NCBI GenBank assembly: GCA_944472155.2
Contig: OX235271.1
Span: 85,511,256-85,575,255 of the forward strand
Direction: 5' to 3'
DNA length: 64,000 bases
Source: Trichobilharzia szidati
Taxonomy: Eukaryota > Platyhelminthes > Trematoda > Strigeidida > Schistosomatidae
Shown: piece by piece, positions 4,710 through 63,646 of the stretch
How the letters are laid out: each line of letters opens with the position of its first letter
How positions within the stretch are numbered: position 1 is the stretch's first letter
The notes under the pieces: generated by a model
Told to the model about the DNA's origin: nothing
Seen by the model: only the letters and a program-made list of their open reading frames with translations
The model's database searches: none
Program-made: the position numbers and the translations under genes

Positions 4710-4714
4710 CTATC

Positions 4715-5110
4715 TGTTAATCGCGACAGATAGATAGACTGTATGATAAGCAGCCAATCAATATTATGTGACCTTTTTTGTCGCGATTATTGGCCAATTA
4801 ATGTAACTCACACCACGTGATGGTGACCTTGAATGTTCTTTTTTGTCTGTCACTCTACTTGTATATACATGTAATTAATTGACTGTTCATTTTGTCCGTA
4901 CCTTCAATACTGTTCGGTACGTTTTTGTCCGTTTTTTGTAATGACGGTGGATTTGTACATTTTTCTTGGTGTAATTTTATGATTTGTTTTATGTTTTAGA
5001 AACAGATAAAGTTAAAGTCAAGTTATTCTGTTTTAACTATAGCTAAGCCGAGACTCTGTATCGTCAGTAATGAGGAAGGACTAAATCTGTAGGACAAAAA
5101 TAATCCTACA
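4715..5110 (+). repeat. 5' LTR of the spectrin-DPP3 element
   Basis: 396 bp, begins TGTTAATCGCG and ends ATCCTACA. By eye it differs from the 3' LTR at one T-run length (6 versus 5 T near 4840) and one substitution in the penultimate base. A TATA-like GTATATACATG lies near 4861 and could serve as the promoter; I see no canonical AATAAA. Confidence 0.95.
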
Positions 5111-5160
5111 AAGTTTCGAACAGTACTGCAGACGAAAGTTTCGAACAGTATGGCAGACGA
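5111..5160 (+). repeat. 25-bp tandem duplication between LTR and ORF start
   Basis: Two 25-bp units, 5111-5135 and 5136-5160, both starting AAGTTTCGAACAGTA and ending GCAGACGA. They differ at two adjacent positions, and only the second unit contains the ATG that opens the ORF (5150). The first unit abuts the LTR, where a primer-binding site is expected. Confidence 0.85.
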
Positions 5161-8100
5161 AAGTTATGAAACTATGCCGTCGTTAACTCCACAGTTAGGA
5201 AAGAGTAATGAAGCTGATTTCCTTGGAAGCAACGAGTATGAATCACGCTATATGGTAGAATTGGAGCTAGCGAAATTGCGCATAGTCCAAAAAGAGAAGG
5301 AAATGGAATTAGAAAGATTACGACAAGGTAGTCGCGAATGTTCTTGTCACAATAAATCGCCTTACAAACCTTCTACTTCTCATAAAGTCTCTGTATCTCC
5401 TAATGATGAGTCCACCAGAACCATATCTAAGTTTCTGGACATGCTTAAAGGATATCAATATTTTAAGTGGAATTCCGATGAACTTGAGTGTTGGATCAAT
5501 GAAAAACTGCAAACATATACAAATGAGGATTTTAAAGAACTCAGTAATCTTCAGCTGAAAAAACAGAAACATCAAGAGTTTGAGTTCGAAGTAACAGTTC
5601 ATGCTGAAACACTCTCAGCTCTAGATTCTACGGGAGAAGAAATGATTGGTCAGGGACACTTCGCAACAGATATTATCAAAAACCGTCTTGATGAATTGCA
5701 TGCCCTGTGGGAAAGGCTTATGGCTATTTTCAGAGAAAAATCCAGTGTCATTAACCTAAAGCTTAAATTTGTCCAGTTTTTACGCCAAGTCGACGAAATA
5801 CTTTTCTGGATACGTGAAAACGAAACTTACGTAACATCAGAGGATTTAGGTCAAGACTTGGAAGATGTTGAGACACTTCAAAAAGGGTTTAATGAGTTTA
5901 CAAAAGATCTCGAAAATCAAGAAAGTCGTGTCGAAGACATCTATCGGAAGGCAGATGAACTTCTAAAAGAGAAATTTCCTGAGGATGCCCTAGTCATAGA
6001 AAAGTTCAGACAGGTCCGCGAAGCTCTAGAACGTCTGAAGGATCTGGTTAGAAAACGACAAGAAAAGCTCCTGGAAGCCTATGAGATACAGTGCTTCTTT
6101 AGAGACACAGATAAAGCTATATCGTGGGTGAATGAAAAGTCTATTCCCTTATCCATTGAGGACTGTGGTCGTGATCTTGCCTCAGTCCAAGCCTTACAAA
6201 GGAAGCACGAAGCATTAGAAAGGGATTTGACTGCCCCAGATGAAAAGATTGTTCGACTTGGAGACGATGCTAAGGCGCTTGCACAGAAGCATCCTGATTC
6301 GCAAGACACTATACAAGGCAAGTATGACGAATTAATTACTGCATGGGATAAGCTGAAAAGTCAGGCTGTAGATAGGAGAGGTAAACTGGAAGAGTCATTC
6401 AAGATGCATCGCTTTTCGGCTGACTGGAGAGACTTGAGTATCTGGATGAATGACATGAAGACGTTAATGTTGGCGGATGATTTGGCAAAGGATGTAGTTG
6501 GTGCTGAAGCCCAAGTAGAGCGACATAAGGAATACACCGCTGAGATAAATTCTCGAGCTGAAAGTTTCGATACATGCATGCAAGAAGGTCAGGCATTACT
6601 AAGTGTTGGCCATCCCTGTAGTGGAGACATAGCTGCTAAACTTTCCACCCTTGAAAGAGAGAGAGCCTCCTTGATGCAGTTGTGTGAGGAAAGACGTGAA
6701 CAGCTAGAACAGTGTATGGGCCTTCAGTATTTTTACCGCGACGCTGAACAGTCGGAATCTTGGATTGGTAAGCAAGAGGCCCTCTTAGAAATAAATGATG
6801 TGGGAGACTCACTCGATTCTGTGGAAGCACTTATAAGGAAACATGAAGACTTCGAAAAGTCACTTTTAGCACAAGAAGAAAAGATGCGACAACTTGATGA
6901 ATTCGCTGCAAAATTAATCGAGTCAAACCACTATGCGGCTTCACAGGTTCATGAGATTCAGGAAGGTCTTCAAAGTAGACGAAATGCATTAAAGGAGAAA
7001 GCTCAGAACCGCCGTCAGCGTCTTGAAGATTTCCACCGTTACCAAATGTTCGATAGAGATGCAGATGAAATGCAGTCATGGATATCAGGAAAACTTAAAT
7101 ATGCACTTGATGAAAGTTACAAAGACTCCACGAATTTGCAAACAAAGATGCAGAAGCACCAGAATTTCGAGGCAGAAATACAAGCGAACCAATCCCGCGT
7201 CAAAGATATTAAAAAGACAGGTCAGGATTTGTTAAATGCAAACCACTACAACTCGCCAGAAATAAAAGTAAAGATTGAACAGTTGGATGAAACTTGGTCT
7301 CATCTCGTAAATGCCATGGGAGACAAGAAGAAAAATTTAGATCAAGCAAGTAGTCAACAACAGTTCGCTCGTAACGTAGATGTCAAGTTATGGTTGAATT
7401 ATGTTGAAGCTCAGATAGCCTCAGAGGATGTCGGTCGTGATCTAAACGGTGTGATGAACGCACAAAAGCTGCACAACTTGCTTGAATCTGATGTAGCTAC
7501 TCATCGTGAACGTATAGATGCATTCAAAGTCCAGGCTGACACGCTTGCTGCAGAAAGTCATCTCGACGCTCCTATTATCCAAGAAGAACAAAGACAGTTA
7601 GCCCAACGTTACCATGACCTGCAAATCCCTCTAAGTCAACGTCGTGAGAAGTTAAGAGATGCCCTTCCCTCGGACACATCTTTGCAGCTTGAATATGGTG
7701 ACTGTAGTGAGCTGATGAAGTTACTAGTCGATTGTTGTAAAGATTTTAAAGCACATTCGCTTAACCAAATCGAATCAGAAATGTGGCATCAGTATGCTGA
7801 AAGCTTCACTACTGGCTCAGTAGCCACTCACAAAGATGCCTTCAGGTTATGTGTTAAAGATAAGAACCCTGTTGTTGAAAACTATGTTGGTTTTATCGAG
7901 TCGTACCGTGATCCCTTTGGTGTTCGTGCAAGGTTTGAATCATTTGTCGCTGTTGTAAATAGATCAGTGTCTAAAAATTTCCAACGACTTGTAAATAATG
8001 CTGAAAGGTTGTTAACAAGTTTACCATGGCCTTCTACGTTTGAAAAAGTTAATTTCTCACAGCCAGACTTTACTAGTTTGAATGTGGTTACGTTTGCAAC

Positions 8101-9214
8101 TGCTGGGATTCCTGTTGGAACTAATACTCCTAACTATGATGATGTACGACAAGTCGATGGATTTAAAAATGTTTCTTTGAATAATGTACTTAGTGTTCGT
8201 CTCGAGGATCCTAAACCAGAATTTCTACGTAATGAAGACAAGCAAATGTACGTGGAACATGCTGAAAGTTCCTTTGAATTACAAGTTGGACTTCATGAAC
8301 TGACGGGATATGGTTCAGGTAAACTGTTTCGGCGTGATTGTTATGGAAAACGAAATTTCCACACGAAAACTACTGAATATGTCATAAATGGAGATCCTGT
8401 AAAAGGTTGGTGTAATCCAGGAGAAACGTATGACATCAAGTTTTCAAACCTTTCATCTGCAATAGACAAGTGTCAAGCTGAGTGCGTTGGAATTTATTTA
8501 TCTGATTTACCTCTTGTTCTGGAGCAGTTCGGTCTGAATACCGACTGTGCTCAAGGCGATGTCTCCGATGTAGTCTATATTAATTGGTTGTCAATGATTC
8601 CTTCAGTTGTAACTTCCATAGAGTTTTATTCTCCAGCAGAAAATGCTGATAACATTAGATCATGGTGTCAAGCACATTATTGTGCTCGTTATGCAATTCT
8701 ACGAGTTTTGATTAAAGCTGACGATTCTATGGGACGTACGCATAAAGTAGTTGGTGAGGACGATGCATCTGATTTGTGTATTTCCTTGGATCCAAAAAGA
8801 CTTTTAACTGTGGCTCGTTCAGCAATTGGTGAATTCTTAAGAAAATTACAATATTACAAAGGTAAAGAGAATGCTATGTGTGGATATGCCTTCTTCCAAC
8901 ACTATAGTCAACTACTTCCAAAATATTTGACTGATTTGCTCTGGCATAAATGGCTACGTGGATATCTTCTGATGCTGCAAACAAGATCTAAGTGGTTGGA
9001 TATAAAGCACAACCTACAACCTGATGATCTCGTCTTAGTTAACAGTGCTGAAACACAGAGAGGTCTCTGGCGAAAGGCTATAGTTAAGCAGATGTACTAT
9101 GACCAAGATGGCCACGTCAGGACACTGTGTTTGAAAACTTCAGCTCAAGAAGTGGAACAAGATATAAGAAGCGTACGAAAGGTCAACGTGGTGATCGTTC
9201 GCGGGGAGTGTTAA
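5150..9214 (+). CDS. Chimeric Gag head / alpha-spectrin repeats / DPP3 / BEL-Pao Pol tail protein
   Basis: 1,354 codons with no stop or intron. Residues 1 to ~97: charged coiled-coil Gag-like head (ELELAKLRIVQKEKEMELER). Residues ~101-840: seven ~106-residue spectrin repeats matching the N-terminal part of alpha-spectrin (WINEKLQ; GRDLASVQALQRKHEALERD; GDSLDSVEAL). Residues ~841-1255: dipeptidyl peptidase III from the middle to near the end of the catalytic region (GFIESYRDPFG near 923; HELTGYGSGKLF at 1049; ILRVL near 1180). Residues ~1256-1354: the C-terminal Pol domain of BEL/Pao (LPKYLTDLLWHKW, DDLVLVNSAETQRGLWR). DPP3 zinc chemistry looks lost: the HELLGH motif reads HELTGY (His to Tyr at 1054) and the zinc-ligand Glu of EECRAE is Lys1107. 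The stop codon lies inside the 3' LTR. Family assignments are by recognition; product and activity are unknown. An unprocessed host gene is excluded by the lack of introns and the flanking LTRs. Confidence 0.9.
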   Translation: MADESYETMPSLTPQLGKSNEADFLGSNEYESRYMVELELAKLRIVQKEKEMELERLRQGSRECSCHNKSPYKPSTSHKVSVSPNDESTRTISKFLDMLKGYQYFKWNSDELECWINEKLQTYTNEDFKELSNLQLKKQKHQEFEFEVTVHAETLSALDSTGEEMIGQGHFATDIIKNRLDELHALWERLMAIFREKSSVINLKLKFVQFLRQVDEILFWIRENETYVTSEDLGQDLEDVETLQKGFNEFTKDLENQESRVEDIYRKADELLKEKFPEDALVIEKFRQVREALERLKDLVRKRQEKLLEAYEIQCFFRDTDKAISWVNEKSIPLSIEDCGRDLASVQALQRKHEALERDLTAPDEKIVRLGDDAKALAQKHPDSQDTIQGKYDELITAWDKLKSQAVDRRGKLEESFKMHRFSADWRDLSIWMNDMKTLMLADDLAKDVVGAEAQVERHKEYTAEINSRAESFDTCMQEGQALLSVGHPCSGDIAAKLSTLERERASLMQLCEERREQLEQCMGLQYFYRDAEQSESWIGKQEALLEINDVGDSLDSVEALIRKHEDFEKSLLAQEEKMRQLDEFAAKLIESNHYAASQVHEIQEGLQSRRNALKEKAQNRRQRLEDFHRYQMFDRDADEMQSWISGKLKYALDESYKDSTNLQTKMQKHQNFEAEIQANQSRVKDIKKTGQDLLNANHYNSPEIKVKIEQLDETWSHLVNAMGDKKKNLDQASSQQQFARNVDVKLWLNYVEAQIASEDVGRDLNGVMNAQKLHNLLESDVATHRERIDAFKVQADTLAAESHLDAPIIQEEQRQLAQRYHDLQIPLSQRREKLRDALPSDTSLQLEYGDCSELMKLLVDCCKDFKAHSLNQIESEMWHQYAESFTTGSVATHKDAFRLCVKDKNPVVENYVGFIESYRDPFGVRARFESFVAVVNRSVSKNFQRLVNNAERLLTSLPWPSTFEKVNFSQPDFTSLNVVTFATAGIPVGTNTPNYDDVRQVDGFKNVSLNNVLSVRLEDPKPEFLRNEDKQMYVEHAESSFELQVGLHELTGYGSGKLFRRDCYGKRNFHTKTTEYVINGDPVKGWCNPGETYDIKFSNLSSAIDKCQAECVGIYLSDLPLVLEQFGLNTDCAQGDVSDVVYINWLSMIPSVVTSIEFYSPAENADNIRSWCQAHYCARYAILRVLIKADDSMGRTHKVVGEDDASDLCISLDPKRLLTVARSAIGEFLRKLQYYKGKENAMCGYAFFQHYSQLLPKYLTDLLWHKWLRGYLLMLQTRSKWLDIKHNLQPDDLVLVNSAETQRGLWRKAIVKQMYYDQDGHVRTLCLKTSAQEVEQDIRSVRKVNVVIVRGEC
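9203..9208 (+). other. Polypurine tract of the chimeric element
   Basis: GGGGAG immediately precedes the TG of the 3' LTR, the position where plus-strand synthesis is primed. It lies within the last codons of the ORF. Confidence 0.7.
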
Positions 9215-9603
9215 TCGCGACAGATAGATAGACTGTATGATAAGCAGCCAATCAATATTATGTGACCTTTTTTGTCGCGATTATTGGCCAATTAATGTAA
9301 CTCACACCACGTGATGGTGACCTTGAATGTTCTTTTTGTCTGTCACTCTACTTGTATATACATGTAATTAATTGACTGTTCATTTTGTCCGTACCTTCAA
9401 TACTGTTCGGTACGTTTTTGTCCGTTTTTTGTAATGACGGTGGATTTGTACATTTTTCTTGGTGTAATTTTATGATTTGTTTTATGTTTTAGAAACAGAT
9501 AAAGTTAAAGTCAAGTTATTCTGTTTTAACTATAGCTAAGCCGAGACTCTGTATCGTCAGTAATGAGGAAGGACTAAATCTGTAGGACAAAAATAATCCT
9601 AAA
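9209..9603 (+). repeat. 3' LTR of the spectrin-DPP3 element
   Basis: 395 bp, nearly identical to 4715-5110. It ends CCTAAA rather than CCTACA, so the terminal CA has one substitution. It is followed directly by the target duplication CTATC. Confidence 0.95.
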
Positions 9604-9608
9604 CTATC

Positions 9609-27830: not shown

Positions 27831-29373
27831 TTCCATATTAGTTTGTTTATTAGACGTATCACATAGTGAGGAACAGTATTATTTACTGCATGACGTTTCG
27901 AACAAAATTTATTGTTCATAATCATATCAATTATAAATATGGCTATAGAGGCAGTCAGAAACCAACTCATTTCTGATCAAGAACTCGAACTTAGGACGAA
28001 AGTGCCACTTGGGTACATAATGCTGGGGGTGCAGCTGTGCCTGACTTCCACAGTATTTAAATTCCAAAGGAAAATTTACAAACAAACTGTGGGAGTTGCC
28101 ATGGGATCACCGATATCCCCAGTTGTGGCAGATATATTCATGCAAAGGTGGGAAAACATAGCAATTGAAACGTTCACCCCCACCCCAAAAGTATGGTGGA
28201 GGTATGTAGATGACATATTCACTGTACTTAGAACACAAGATATAGATAGATTTTTTGAACACATCAACTCGAAGGTTGAAGCAATTCAATTCACTTATGA
28301 ATTGGAAAATCAGGAAGGAGAGCTCCCAATGTTAGATTGCAACGTAAAAAGGAAAGAAGATGGGAAGTTAAACACTAGTGTTTACAGGAAACCCACACAT
28401 CCAAACAGATATTTGGACTTCCGATCATCCCATCCTATGTCAGTAAAAATTGGATTGGTGAAATGTTTAAATGACAGAGCACAAAAACTAAGTAGTACCA
28501 AGGAAAATCTAAAAAAGGAACTGATACACATAAAAGAAGCCTTGAAACTTAATAATTACCCGGATAAATTAGTCAGGAAATGTAAAAATAAAATAAATAA
28601 TGATAGTAGTGATAGTAATAATAACAATAATAATGATAATAATTATAGTGATAATAATAATAATATTAATGACGACACCAACAATAAGGAATCTAAATCA
28701 TCAGTAGTAATTCCATACAAGGAAGGAACCTCGGAAGCCTTACGCAGAATTCTCAACAAGGCAGGAATAAAAACGACATTCAAACCCACAAACTCAATTG
28801 GAAACAAGCTTTGTCGGTTAAAGGATCCTGTGGAGCCTTTAAAACAAAACAATTTAGTTTACCTAATACCCTGCTGGTATGACTGTCAGGTCAAATACAT
28901 AGGTCAAACTAGTAGAACAGGGGCAGTCAGACTAGCTGAACACAAAAACCTAGCAAAATCTAGATTAGTTGACCCGAATAAGATAAGAAATCCAGAGAAT
29001 AGTTCAGCCATGGCACTACGTGCAATTAAACACAACCATACAATAGAGTGATGGGATAAGATGACAGTTTTAAAATCTAATACAGCTAACAGGGTAGAGG
29101 GAGAGATTGATAACAGAAGCTTTGTTTATCGAATCAACTGCAAATACATGTAATAGGAATAATTCAACACCTGTCTCAGATATCTAGAAAGTTCTACTAC
29201 CCCTACGACGACAAATAGCAGAGAATAAAGAAAACTATAAAACTCAAGTTTCGAAGTCGTATGATTATAATTGATGAAATGATTATGAACAATAAATTTT
29301 GTTCGAAACCTTGTCATCCAGTACATAATACTGTTTCACTGTGTCAAACGTCTAATAAGCAAACTAATATGGA
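27831..29373 (+). mobile_element. Penelope-like element with ~105-bp inverted terminal repeats
   Basis: Left arm 27831-27936 and right arm 29265-29373 are inverted (TTATTAGACGT, AACAGTATTAT, TTCGAACAAAATTTATTGTT). The arms have diverged visibly, unlike those of the element at 23139. Encloses the RT/GIY-YIG frame 27912-29051. Lies in an intron of the minus-strand EGF/TSP1 gene. Confidence 0.85.
27912..29051 (+). CDS. PLE polyprotein, 5'-truncated: RT C-half, Asn-rich linker, GIY-YIG endonuclease
   Basis: 379-codon open frame. It starts inside the terminal repeat, so the RT N-terminus is missing. Residues ~55-85: GVAMGSPISPVVADIFM, the RT palm/B motif. YVDDIF catalytic box at residue 98. RKPTHPNRYLDFRSSHP near 155 is a PLE hallmark. 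Residues ~230-260 are an Asn/Asp/Ser tract encoded by AAT/GAT-rich triplets. The GIY-YIG domain from ~314 reads NLVYLIPC and then VKYIGQTSRTGAVRLAEHKN. The final stop at 29051 precedes a decayed continuation (LKSNTANRVEGEID-like). The product is unlikely to be functional, but the frame is long and open. Confidence 0.8.
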   Translation: MFIIISIINMAIEAVRNQLISDQELELRTKVPLGYIMLGVQLCLTSTVFKFQRKIYKQTVGVAMGSPISPVVADIFMQRWENIAIETFTPTPKVWWRYVDDIFTVLRTQDIDRFFEHINSKVEAIQFTYELENQEGELPMLDCNVKRKEDGKLNTSVYRKPTHPNRYLDFRSSHPMSVKIGLVKCLNDRAQKLSSTKENLKKELIHIKEALKLNNYPDKLVRKCKNKINNDSSDSNNNNNNDNNYSDNNNNINDDTNNKESKSSVVIPYKEGTSEALRRILNKAGIKTTFKPTNSIGNKLCRLKDPVEPLKQNNLVYLIPCWYDCQVKYIGQTSRTGAVRLAEHKNLAKSRLVDPNKIRNPENSSAMALRAIKHNHTIE

Positions 29374-60484: not shown

Positions 60485-60847
60485 TGTTATGTATGTGAAT
60501 ATGAGGACCTTGTAGACTACGAGCGAATCTAACTAATGCGCTGGCTAATCTGTCTTAATCGCACGTCAACAGCAACAACAATAATACCGCCGGGCACGCA
60601 AGACAAACAAAAGAGAAGACTGGACGTTGATATGAGAGCTTTTACTGACTCAAACAACAGTCGAAAATGTTAAACAACAACTCCGTATTTATACAATTAG
60701 AAAAATCAATGTCACATTTTAAAAATATTAACGACCTTGGGGAATTCAGTAATTTAAATCAATAATCACGCAGATGCGTGAAATCAATGATTATGCTAAT
60801 GTGTGAAATAAATAATGAATATTAATGATTCCCCTGCGTATATATTA
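60485..60847 (-). repeat. 3' LTR of the RT-less gypsy element
   Basis: 363 bp, no difference seen from 63284-63646. Sense strand starts TAATATATACGC and ends CATACATAACA. Confidence 0.93.
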
Positions 60848-60859
60848 CCTCCCCCTTTT
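60848..60859 (-). other. Polypurine tract
   Basis: Sense AAAAGGGGGAGG directly before the 3' LTR. Confidence 0.85.
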
Positions 60860-61087
60860 AAAAAGAATCTTGCAATCAGTTTAGTATCTTTTTTCCTTGG
60901 GGTCGATTTGGAAAGGAACTGTTTGTGTTCGTTTGCGCTGGGATCGTCGGCTGGGTAGTATCTCTTGTTTTGCTTCCGGTTTGACTGGTGGTATTTTGAA
61001 AGTTTCCAGTAGTAATTCCAGTGGGAATTTAGGTTCTTGGGATGTAGTATATCGACGTCGTATCTGATTTTTATGTCTAATCCACCA

Positions 61088-63259
61088 TTAATCCCCAACT
61101 TTAACCTTGTACATTACAGTTCCATGTCGACATTCTATCAAGCCTTCGGCCCATTTTCTGTTCCTCGGTCGATAATCGCGCACATAGACGGCATCACCCT
61201 TGCGGTAATACGTCACACTATTTCTTCGTTGATGTGACGAAGATGGTAACATGGAGTGGTGATGAGTACGTAGCATTCGACCCATTAGAAGTTCTGCAGG
61301 ACTTTTCTTCTGTTCTGCTAGTGGTGTAGTTCGGTATACAAAAAGAAAGTTTTGTATTGCTTCCGGTTTCGCCCCTCCCCCTGTTTTCAACAAGGCTCGT
61401 TTGAAGGTGTCGACAAATCTTTCTGCCTGACCGTTGGATTGAGGGTGATAAGGTGGCGTCCGCACGTGTTGTATACCGTTTCTCCTGCAAAATTCCTGGA
61501 ACACTTGTGAGGTGAACTGACTGCCGTTGTCAGATACGATGATTTCTGGTATACCGTGACATGCGAAGATCTTTTCCAGGACTGATACTGTTCTGCTGCT
61601 AGAAGGTGGTGTCACTTGTACTACCTCCGGCCATTTTGAGTAAGAGTCCACGAGAACCAAGTAGTATATACCTTCTATCGGCCCAGCAAAATCCACATGT
61701 AGGCGGGACCATGGTTTTGACGTGGGCCATGCTCTCGGTGGCGGATCTTTGGCTGCCATGACAGACATCACTTTCAGTTTTTGAGCAGAGCCTCTCTTAC
61801 TGGAGCTAACAGTTGCTACTTTGTTGCTACCAGACATCGAAGCACTTTTGGCGCAGCCATTCTCACTATGACGATTCGAAGTTGGTTTTTCATTAATCAC
61901 GTCATTCTTTCTAATGGGCTTAGGTTTAATATATCTGTCTCTGATTTCTGGCTTTCTTGTTGAGGGTTCAATACTTTCTATCTTCTGGCATACACTGCTT
62001 AACGGAATCTTTGACAGATGCAGCTTCTCGAACCAGTCTAAACCCAAGAGGTCAAGGTTTGAATTGTTGATGTAGCATGTGCCGACGAAATGACTATCGC
62101 GAAAATCAACACTGCATTTTATTTCTCCATTCAATCGAAGTCTTCCACCACATGCGCTAATTGCTATCTGATTTGTCTTCTCTATGGCAGGGCATCCCAA
62201 CTTCTGCCATAATTTCTTTGATATTATTGTAATATCGGATGCTGTGTCGATTTGTAGGCGTGCCGGCCGTGTATTAATCGTCAGATTGATATATTTGCGA
62301 GGTGCTGGAGTACTGATATGATATGCGGCAGTAATACCCAAAGACTTAGGCTTGTTGCGCCGTCCGGGTCGACCACGAGATCTGGGTCGGTTGTTGTGTT
62401 TGCAGTAGCCATCTTTGTGACCAACAGTATGGCATTGACGGCATTTATGCTGTTTGAATGGGCACAAGTTTGCAAAATGCCAGGCGCCACAGTGCCAGCA
62501 GGCTGATGGTGGTTTATGCTGAGAATGACGCGGTGCGGTTGATGTCGACGGTACTGGATGCACCGCATGCACTTCTGCTGCATTTTGGCTGCCAGACTGC
62601 ACCAAGACGGTATCGTTGTGAATGTTGATTAAACGCTGATATTCTTCACCGACGTCTTTCAAAGTCATTCGTGGATCTTGTTCCAAACGATTTAATAGAC
62701 GTGTGCGTATATCAGCAAATTTGGGAGACTGCAAACCACAAATGAAAATCAATACCTTGAACTGGTCTTCTGAGAGTGATTTCAATTTAAAACGTTCACA
62801 CGTGCGATTGACTATACCCAACTGAGTATGGATATCATCATTTTCGTTCAGAGATAGTTTCATGCAATGATATCGAATGTTGAATAAAGATCTCTGATCA
62901 CCGAACTGATGACGAAGGGTATGGACAGTTTCATCGAATGACCTTTCGCTGGGCTTCTGTGGGAGAATTAAGTTGCAATATTTATCTAGCTCATCTGCTC
63001 CCAATTTACGAAGTAGAAGCCGTACTTTCCAGGCATCATCTTTATCCGCAAAGTCTACTCGAAATAGGTCTTCATATCTGCGAAACCAAGTGTCAAAAGT
63101 GACGTTCGCATCTGGATCATAAACAAATTCTGAGATGCTGCTACCAATGCTGTCGTTGGCTGTAGATGAATCGGCAGAGCGTGATATCTGTAGACCAGCA
63201 AGCATTTCCATCAATTTTAGCTGCTGTTCCATTAGTTTCTCTAAACGCAGTGGGTCCAT
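61088..63259 (-). CDS. Gag-protease-integrase fusion of the RT-less gypsy element
   Basis: 723 codons from ATG at 63259 (MDPLRLEKLMEQQ). The frame is open to 63280, but those codons fall in the primer-binding site. Residues ~1-240: Gag capsid-like (DTWFRRYEDLFRVDFADKDD; RQQFGD-type region). Two zinc knuckles from Cys254 (CWHCGAWHFANLC, CX2CX3HX4C; CRQCHTVGHKDGYC). Protease with Asp338 in IDTASD, LLGLDWF near 403. A linker of about 110 residues follows where RT, RNase H and the HHCC finger should be. The integrase core keeps the triad Asp523 (HVDFAGP), Asp577 (SDNGSQF) and Glu613 (GQAERF), with exactly 35 residues between the last two. The C-terminal integrase domain ends KVKVGD. Protease and integrase may be active; DNA synthesis would have to come from another copy. 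The gypsy lineage was not determined. Confidence 0.92.
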   Translation of the reverse strand: MDPLRLEKLMEQQLKLMEMLAGLQISRSADSSTANDSIGSSISEFVYDPDANVTFDTWFRRYEDLFRVDFADKDDAWKVRLLLRKLGADELDKYCNLILPQKPSERSFDETVHTLRHQFGDQRSLFNIRYHCMKLSLNENDDIHTQLGIVNRTCERFKLKSLSEDQFKVLIFICGLQSPKFADIRTRLLNRLEQDPRMTLKDVGEEYQRLINIHNDTVLVQSGSQNAAEVHAVHPVPSTSTAPRHSQHKPPSACWHCGAWHFANLCPFKQHKCRQCHTVGHKDGYCKHNNRPRSRGRPGRRNKPKSLGITAAYHISTPAPRKYINLTINTRPARLQIDTASDITIISKKLWQKLGCPAIEKTNQIAISACGGRLRLNGEIKCSVDFRDSHFVGTCYINNSNLDLLGLDWFEKLHLSKIPLSSVCQKIESIEPSTRKPEIRDRYIKPKPIRKNDVINEKPTSNRHSENGCAKSASMSGSNKVATVSSSKRGSAQKLKVMSVMAAKDPPPRAWPTSKPWSRLHVDFAGPIEGIYYLVLVDSYSKWPEVVQVTPPSSSRTVSVLEKIFACHGIPEIIVSDNGSQFTSQVFQEFCRRNGIQHVRTPPYHPQSNGQAERFVDTFKRALLKTGGGAKPEAIQNFLFVYRTTPLAEQKKSPAELLMGRMLRTHHHSMLPSSSHQRRNSVTYYRKGDAVYVRDYRPRNRKWAEGLIECRHGTVMYKVKVGD

Positions 63260-63283
63260 CTTCAGCAAACCCGTCGCCAAATT

Positions 63284-63646
63284 TGTTATGTATGTGAATA
63301 TGAGGACCTTGTAGACTACGAGCGAATCTAACTAATGCGCTGGCTAATCTGTCTTAATCGCACGTCAACAGCAACAACAATAATACCGCCGGGCACGCAA
63401 GACAAACAAAAGAGAAGACTGGACGTTGATATGAGAGCTTTTACTGACTCAAACAACAGTCGAAAATGTTAAACAACAACTCCGTATTTATACAATTAGA
63501 AAAATCAATGTCACATTTTAAAAATATTAACGACCTTGGGGAATTCAGTAATTTAAATCAATAATCACGCAGATGCGTGAAATCAATGATTATGCTAATG
63601 TGTGAAATAAATAATGAATATTAATGATTCCCCTGCGTATATATTA
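63284..63646 (-). repeat. 5' LTR of the RT-less gypsy element
   Basis: 363 bp, identical by eye to the 3' LTR. Followed on the sense strand by AAT and TTGGCGACGGG. Confidence 0.93.

Follow-up and report, generated by a model that had tools for sequence, protein, structure and literature searches.

In the maize LTR retroelement Bs1, pieces of three cellular genes form one hybrid open frame, as outlined in two papers (PMC13317346, PMC5408686). In metazoans, LTR-mediated retroposition, outlined from Tan et al. 2016, proceeds by template switching at short similarities between the RNA of an LTR element and a co-packaged mRNA (PMC5408686). Gene capture has also been reported in crocodilian endogenous retroviruses, which are animal LTR elements as well and resemble the present case in this respect (PMC4299795). 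Among flatworm elements, Sinbad, a Pao/BEL element of Schistosoma mansoni, is described with LTRs of 386 bp that begin with TGT and end with TCA (PMC554778), and TRIM elements have been treated in Echinococcus (PMC4558846).

The element described here lies at positions 4710–9608 of the window, that is, the whole stretch of 64,000 nucleotides of Trichobilharzia szidati DNA that was analyzed. To judge from the outlines of Bs1, both combine fragments of at least two unrelated cellular genes within a single frame of an LTR element, and the kind of event is therefore already known, since Bs1 holds several captured cellular genes in this way. However, Bs1 is a plant element, whereas the present one is animal, carries a BEL/Pao-type tail, consists of captured cellular sequence over ~86% of its 1,354-codon frame, and has fusion junctions common to two species together with a likely surviving intermediate. 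The primary work on Bs1 is reportedly that of Jin and Bennetzen 1994 and of Elrouby and Bureau 2001 and 2010. In the cases outlined from Tan et al. 2016, an mRNA piece enters the element cDNA as a retrocopy (PMC5408686), whereas here two genes are joined and relatives occur in two species. Sinbad and Saci-1 are Pao/BEL LTR elements of a related fluke, the likeness being one by description only; moreover, Sinbad is described as having gag, protease, reverse transcriptase, RNase H, and integrase domains (PMC554778), whereas the window element is without almost all of pol. TRIM and other non-autonomous LTR elements, as far as their treatment goes, are similar in having LTRs without pol and in presumably being moved in trans. 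TRIM-type elements are small and mostly non-coding, whereas the window element has retained a long frame that derives from cellular genes. The original prediction had called dual capture with near-total loss of pol in a flatworm LTR element undescribed, as far as was known; multi-gene capture as such is known from Bs1, and among the open-access PMC papers listed, which leave subscription papers mostly uncovered, there was neither a flatworm nor a BEL/Pao element that had taken up cellular genes, nor an animal case of two genes fused in one LTR-element frame.

We consider it quite probable that the locus is a non-autonomous BEL/Pao-type element in which two worm mRNAs, for alpha-spectrin and dipeptidyl peptidase III (DPP3), were captured, probably sequentially, and whose movement likely depended in trans on an intact relative. 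If this reading is true, one animal element family preserves successive stages of capture, first DPP3 alone and later DPP3 with spectrin, and the sister species with their shared junctions would make the capture order and the template-switch points directly readable. Moreover, it would show how elements of this kind can enter parasite proteomes as predicted 'spectrin' or 'DPP3' genes.

Architecture and class of the element

Positions 4710–9608 of the window are an LTR-flanked mobile element with a target-site duplication; all stranded features given below are on the + strand. Self-comparison places the 5' LTR (396 bp), which starts with TGTTAATC and ends with TACA, at 4715–5110 and the 3' LTR (395 bp) at 9209–9603, the two copies being one substitution and one T-run indel apart. 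The termini of the 5' LTR are TG...CA, and the 3' LTR ends in AAA through one substitution. Sequence inspection identifies the target-site duplication CTATC on both sides, at 4710–4714 and 9604–9608, and thus the paired direct LTRs and flanking duplication that are hallmarks of LTR retrotransposons are both present. Between the LTRs, the ORF call gives an open frame of 1354 codons (5150–9214), the final sense codon and stop of which sit inside the 3' LTR, and the single long frame, LTRs, and target duplications that had been predicted were thus all recovered. The purine tract of that prediction is found as the run GGGGAG (9203–9208), recognized by eye and directly abutting the 3' LTR, but it is short and weak as a polypurine tract, and by eye no tRNA match was recognized as a primer binding site after the 5' LTR. 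The copy in the window inserted recently and belongs to a family already established, where recent means only 'young', the LTR ages resting on two assumed, uncalibrated rates. BLASTn of the element against the 64-kb window revealed no second copy in it. A weak reverse-transcriptase fragment of a different element type is also found in the window.

Pfam was run separately on four pieces covering the whole ORF, and with curated cut-offs the only families above threshold are spectrin, M49, and DUF5641. DUF5641 (E 2.2e-19) marks the tail of the frame (8927–9214), and this region, also seen in relatives, is one that we take to be linked with the C-terminus of BEL/Pao pol. Compared with P0013, a T. 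szidati relative, the extreme end of the tail is read in another frame, and the tail-region search returned two of 34 candidates, P0240 of T. szidati and P0241 of Trichobilharzia regenti. In a scan of viral contigs with the tail region, one locus gave a 25-residue match and was set aside. No Pfam match to a protease, reverse transcriptase, RNase H, or integrase core was obtained in the four ORF pieces, which bears out the predicted near-total loss of pol; by its tail, the element is likely of BEL/Pao type with nearly all of pol gone, and we class it as derived and non-autonomous rather than as an autonomous BEL/Pao element because these four enzymatic parts are unmatched.

At the other end, the first ~100 codons (5150–5449) are likely a Gag N-terminus, since they share 60% identity over 97 aa with the N-terminal end of P0241, which then runs into other sequence. 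That following stretch has no Pfam match, and we take it to be BEL Gag and then the first part of the BEL reverse-transcriptase region. Residues 1–99 of the window frame match no Pfam family, even at E 10, and the same applies to residues 1–119 of P0241 (0 families in 3/3 pieces). Thus, of the assignment of both ends to BEL/Pao Gag and Pol, the Pol side is backed by the DUF5641 tail, but the Gag side is without a profile match.

The captured spectrin and DPP3 segments

The segment at 5450–7663 contains seven spectrin repeats in an uninterrupted series (Pfam E 3.9e-146), and a search of solved structures and protein searches likewise identify it as alpha-spectrin. Among the best 120 of 143 matches, obtained from 7994 best candidates scored, frame residues 87–838 are 81.8% identical to P0121 of Schistosoma intercalatum over 753 aligned positions with one gap, and a protein from Heterobilharzia shares 86% identity with the segment over 317 positions. 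The segment at 7664–8926 is DPP3 (peptidase family M49; Peptidase_M49, Pfam E 2.7e-142), again identified as dipeptidyl peptidase 3 by the solved-structure search. Among the best 120 of 1060 protein matches, frame residues 837–1259, which include the junction codons, align without gaps to residues 225–647 of P0001, a DPP3 protein of T. regenti, at 82.3% identity, and three further schistosomatid DPP3 proteins (P0002–P0004) are 66–71% identical to the window. Searched segment by segment, as had been proposed, the frame therefore yielded alpha-spectrin with seven repeats, DPP3, and DUF5641 in agreement with the original prediction, residues 1–99 being left without a family. The 'two host genes' of that prediction are indeed two unrelated cellular genes; the inserts are of worm origin, and not from the bird or snail host, because the nearest proteins are schistosomatid. 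Both segments are uninterrupted in the element, and a Heterobilharzia DPP3 model drops a clean block of 49 residues that the element keeps, which hints at introns in the DPP3 gene.

The zinc-ligand positions of the DPP3 segment are changed. HELLGH and EECRAE, which we take to be the motifs that hold the zinc-related residues of active DPP3 (M49), read HELTGY and DKCQAE in the window. The second His of HELLGH is lost in 6/6 element copies showing the motif, and EECRAE has become D/N-K in 5/5 copies showing it, P0007 and P0008 of T. regenti being left out of these counts owing to gaps at one or both motifs; both motifs are intact in 6/6 control DPP3 proteins. The captured DPP3 is thus likely an inactive peptidase and, judging by its motifs, whatever the element preserves is not DPP3 catalysis.

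With conserved DPP3 sites defined as those at least 97% conserved among outgroup DPP3 (108 proteins kept, those of <650 aa excluded), 20/147 are changed in the window, against 0/134 in P0004 and 1/135 in each of P0001, P0002, and P0003 (p 1.5e-5 or less for the two worm genes tested). Compared with the schistosomatid majority, the window has 77 differences at 375 DPP3 sites, 10 of them also present in P0001; another 30 are common to the T. regenti elements and absent from P0001, and 28 of these 30 recur in P0240. For spectrin, the outgroups were the proteins from P0123 to P0159 with at least 700 aa (n = 32), and only 5/136 of the most conserved sites are changed in the window, fewer than in its DPP3 segment (Fisher p 0.003). 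This value does not differ from that of the sole informative worm gene (1/82, p 0.41), whereas in the next conservation class the window is more changed (28/216 vs. 6/113, p 0.035). The lower change in spectrin may reflect a later arrival or constraint; a later capture of spectrin would predict less change than in DPP3.

A domesticated chimeric worm gene that sits by chance between the LTRs could account for a frame that is open despite many amino-acid changes and for the gene prediction existing in T. szidati. Nevertheless, the locus is a complete element with its target-site duplication, several diverged copies exist (P0240 and P0013 in T. szidati; P0005, P0007, P0008, and P0241 in T. regenti), and the DPP3 differences between the window and P0240 are evenly spread, at 10/149 invariant sites and 7/135 mid and low sites, that is, not depleted where DPP3 is conserved, all of which makes domestication most unlikely.

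Shared junctions and the probable order of capture

Relatives were compared as proteins, and sequence matches at the switch points were therefore seen at protein level. P0240 (1304 aa) is 94.9% identical to the window frame over residues 52–1354, through all three junctions, a match that by itself would place the window in Trichobilharzia and likely in T. szidati; it stands for a cluster of 13 member sequences, of which the window's own protein could be one, and lies on a 216.9-Mb contig. At 7658–7663, the window joins spectrin straight to DPP3 residue 225–226 at Asp-Ala, encoded there by GATGCC, as P0240 and P0007 also do at Asp-Ala, the latter with the same spectrin/DPP3 junction REKLRDA/LPSDTS, and Asp-Ala occurs at this point in relatives of both parent proteins. 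The DPP3/tail junction is found again in P0005 and in P0013, which is located on a 179-Mb T. szidati contig different from that of P0240. Within Trichobilharzia, all three fusion junctions are therefore present in T. szidati proteins and two of the three in T. regenti, the Gag/spectrin junction not being seen among the T. regenti proteins found. The T. regenti relatives P0005, P0007, P0008, and P0241 are gene models on contigs of 1.4–5.6 kb.

Two other readings of the frame are to be weighed here. The sharing of one frame by unrelated sequence types could be suspected to be an assembly chimera, but this is contradicted by the same fusions on the 179- and 217-Mb T. szidati contigs and on the T. 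regenti contigs (P0240, P0013, P0007, and P0005); as the original prediction assumed, the fusion is no artifact, and the probability of a chimera is negligible. That a BEL element received the two genes as processed pseudogenes of the LINE-type retrocopy kind, or through rearrangement of DNA, is conceivable in that the reverse-transcriptase fragment mentioned above indicates other retroelements nearby. However, neither a poly-A tail nor a duplication was seen by eye within 30 bases of any of the three internal junctions, each gene segment is cut short at its two ends, and the frame is intact at all three joins in the window and, as had been claimed, kept at all three again in P0240, so that we regard this origin as very unlikely.

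The relatives differ in what they contain. P0241 starts with the Gag end, is devoid of spectrin, carries DPP3 beginning at its native start (MDFY), preceded by translated upstream sequence, and closes with the same tail as the window frame, and it may be a surviving intermediate, for which reason capture was probably sequential, with DPP3 first. P0241 may also lack spectrin by modelling alone, because gene models on short contigs may skip exons. P0008 has a bit of spectrin followed by a P0241-like pol-like piece, the upstream stretch, and then DPP3; its spectrin joins the pol-like piece at a point different from the window junction and, hence, either more than one spectrin junction exists or the gene model is wrong. 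The simplest order is probably DPP3 and then spectrin, the latter replacing the C-terminus of Gag, the pol remnant, and the start of DPP3.

A DPP3 tree of 18 hand-picked sequences, with supports taken from the unrooted tree, places 7/7 element copies in one clade (support 100) that adjoins T. regenti P0001 (92), with Heterobilharzia next (67), all of them inside schistosomatid DPP3 (100). Together with the DPP3 differences given above, the tree agrees with a single capture of DPP3 on the Trichobilharzia stem, earlier than the split between T. szidati and T. regenti. In the best tree, the element copies of this clade separate into a T. szidati group (100) and a T. regenti group (81); P0241 belongs to the latter and does not lie outside the spectrin-DPP3 copies. 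Such a grouping runs against a simple DPP3-first order, and the tree does not prove the order; template switching between forms within each species would also yield it. Forcing the window, P0240, and P0007 together and apart from P0241 was not rejected with P0013 and P0005 free (AU p 0.16), nor was forcing them apart from P0241 and P0008 under the same freedom (AU p 0.24), whereas forcing them apart from all other rows, including P0013 and P0005, was rejected (p 2e-5). P0013 may also be a spectrin form at its 5' part.

A single event, in which one packaged RNA mix gave rise to an old dual capture that then spread, would agree with this position of P0241 and with the full-length T. szidati relative that carries both genes with the same junctions. 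Nevertheless, it would leave the DPP3 start retained in the spectrin-free P0241 to be explained, as well as the greater change at conserved sites of DPP3 than of spectrin, and we judge it improbable. The one recent dual packaging event of the original prediction fares worse, since the junctions recur in P0240, P0007, and P0005, including those common to T. regenti, and a spectrin-free form exists. The captures thus look old and probably sequential, given the junctions common to T. regenti and the existence of P0241.

Proposed mechanism and the open frame

For the sequential reading, we infer the mRNA origin of the inserts, the switch points, their order, the mobilization in trans, and any selection on the frame from the features above. 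In the common ancestor of T. szidati and T. regenti, the RNA of a BEL/Pao-type element and a DPP3 mRNA would have been co-packaged in a virus-like particle, where reverse transcriptase could have switched template from the element RNA to the DPP3 mRNA and then returned to the former, so that most of pol was replaced. In a second round, spectrin would have replaced the C-terminus of Gag, the remaining pol, and the start of DPP3, with switches at short matches that are seen in proteins only, namely Lys at junction 1 and Asp-Ala at junction 2. The LTRs, the leader, and any packaging signal would have been retained and, therefore, the enzymes of an intact element could copy and insert the derived one, which would spread in trans with these borrowed enzymes.

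In a bolder form of this scenario, which we hold to be possible but doubtful, the element would be a serial gene collector that took DPP3 and then spectrin, lost its own enzymes, and is still spreading in Trichobilharzia, its fused frame being kept by selection because the Gag-spectrin-dead-DPP3 protein, or translation through it, aids packaging or survival of the element RNA. This would address the question of why a frame of 1,354 codons, the enzyme part of which is likely dead, is kept by an element that has no enzymes. For the 67 changes on the DPP3 branch alone, measured at the 375 scored sites, 3.8–4.9 stops would be expected and none is found (the 87–140 changes used elsewhere are illustrative), and the absence of stops may point to selection on translation or RNA stability, an argument that is biased and suggestive only because the element was chosen for its open frame. 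In the spectrin segment, the window and P0240 differ less often at conserved sites (4/165) than at the others (15/267).

Other retroelement sequences in the window

Besides the element that carries the alpha-spectrin and DPP3 segments, positions 60485-63583 hold another young LTR element, compact and devoid of reverse transcriptase. Its 300-bp repeats (60485-60784 and 63284-63583) are 100% identical and enclose a single 730-aa frame on the minus strand, in which DUF7083 (Gag-side) and an integrase core were recognized, together with weak aspartic-protease matches, and in which no reverse-transcriptase match was found. Moreover, the ORF at 27912-29051, presumably Penelope-like by its look, has a weak reverse-transcriptase match (E 2.2e-5) that fails the curated cut-off.

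Leader and tail of the spectrin–DPP3 element

By eye, the stretch that separates the 5' LTR from the start codon, in which a primer binding site would be expected, contains an almost perfect tandem duplication some 24 bp long (5108-5158). At the other end, by-eye comparison with the T. szidati protein P0013 shows the final tail codons, within 9180-9240, to be frame-shifted; the end of P0013 continues into the start of the 3' LTR in a different frame from that of the window, and the shifted end is common to the window and P0240, also from T. szidati.

Element frames in public proteomes

P0013 and P0240, as well as the T. regenti proteins P0005, P0007, P0008, and P0241, are element frames entered as predicted proteins in public Trichobilharzia proteomes, where such element-derived entries could pass wrongly for an expansion of the spectrin or DPP3 family.
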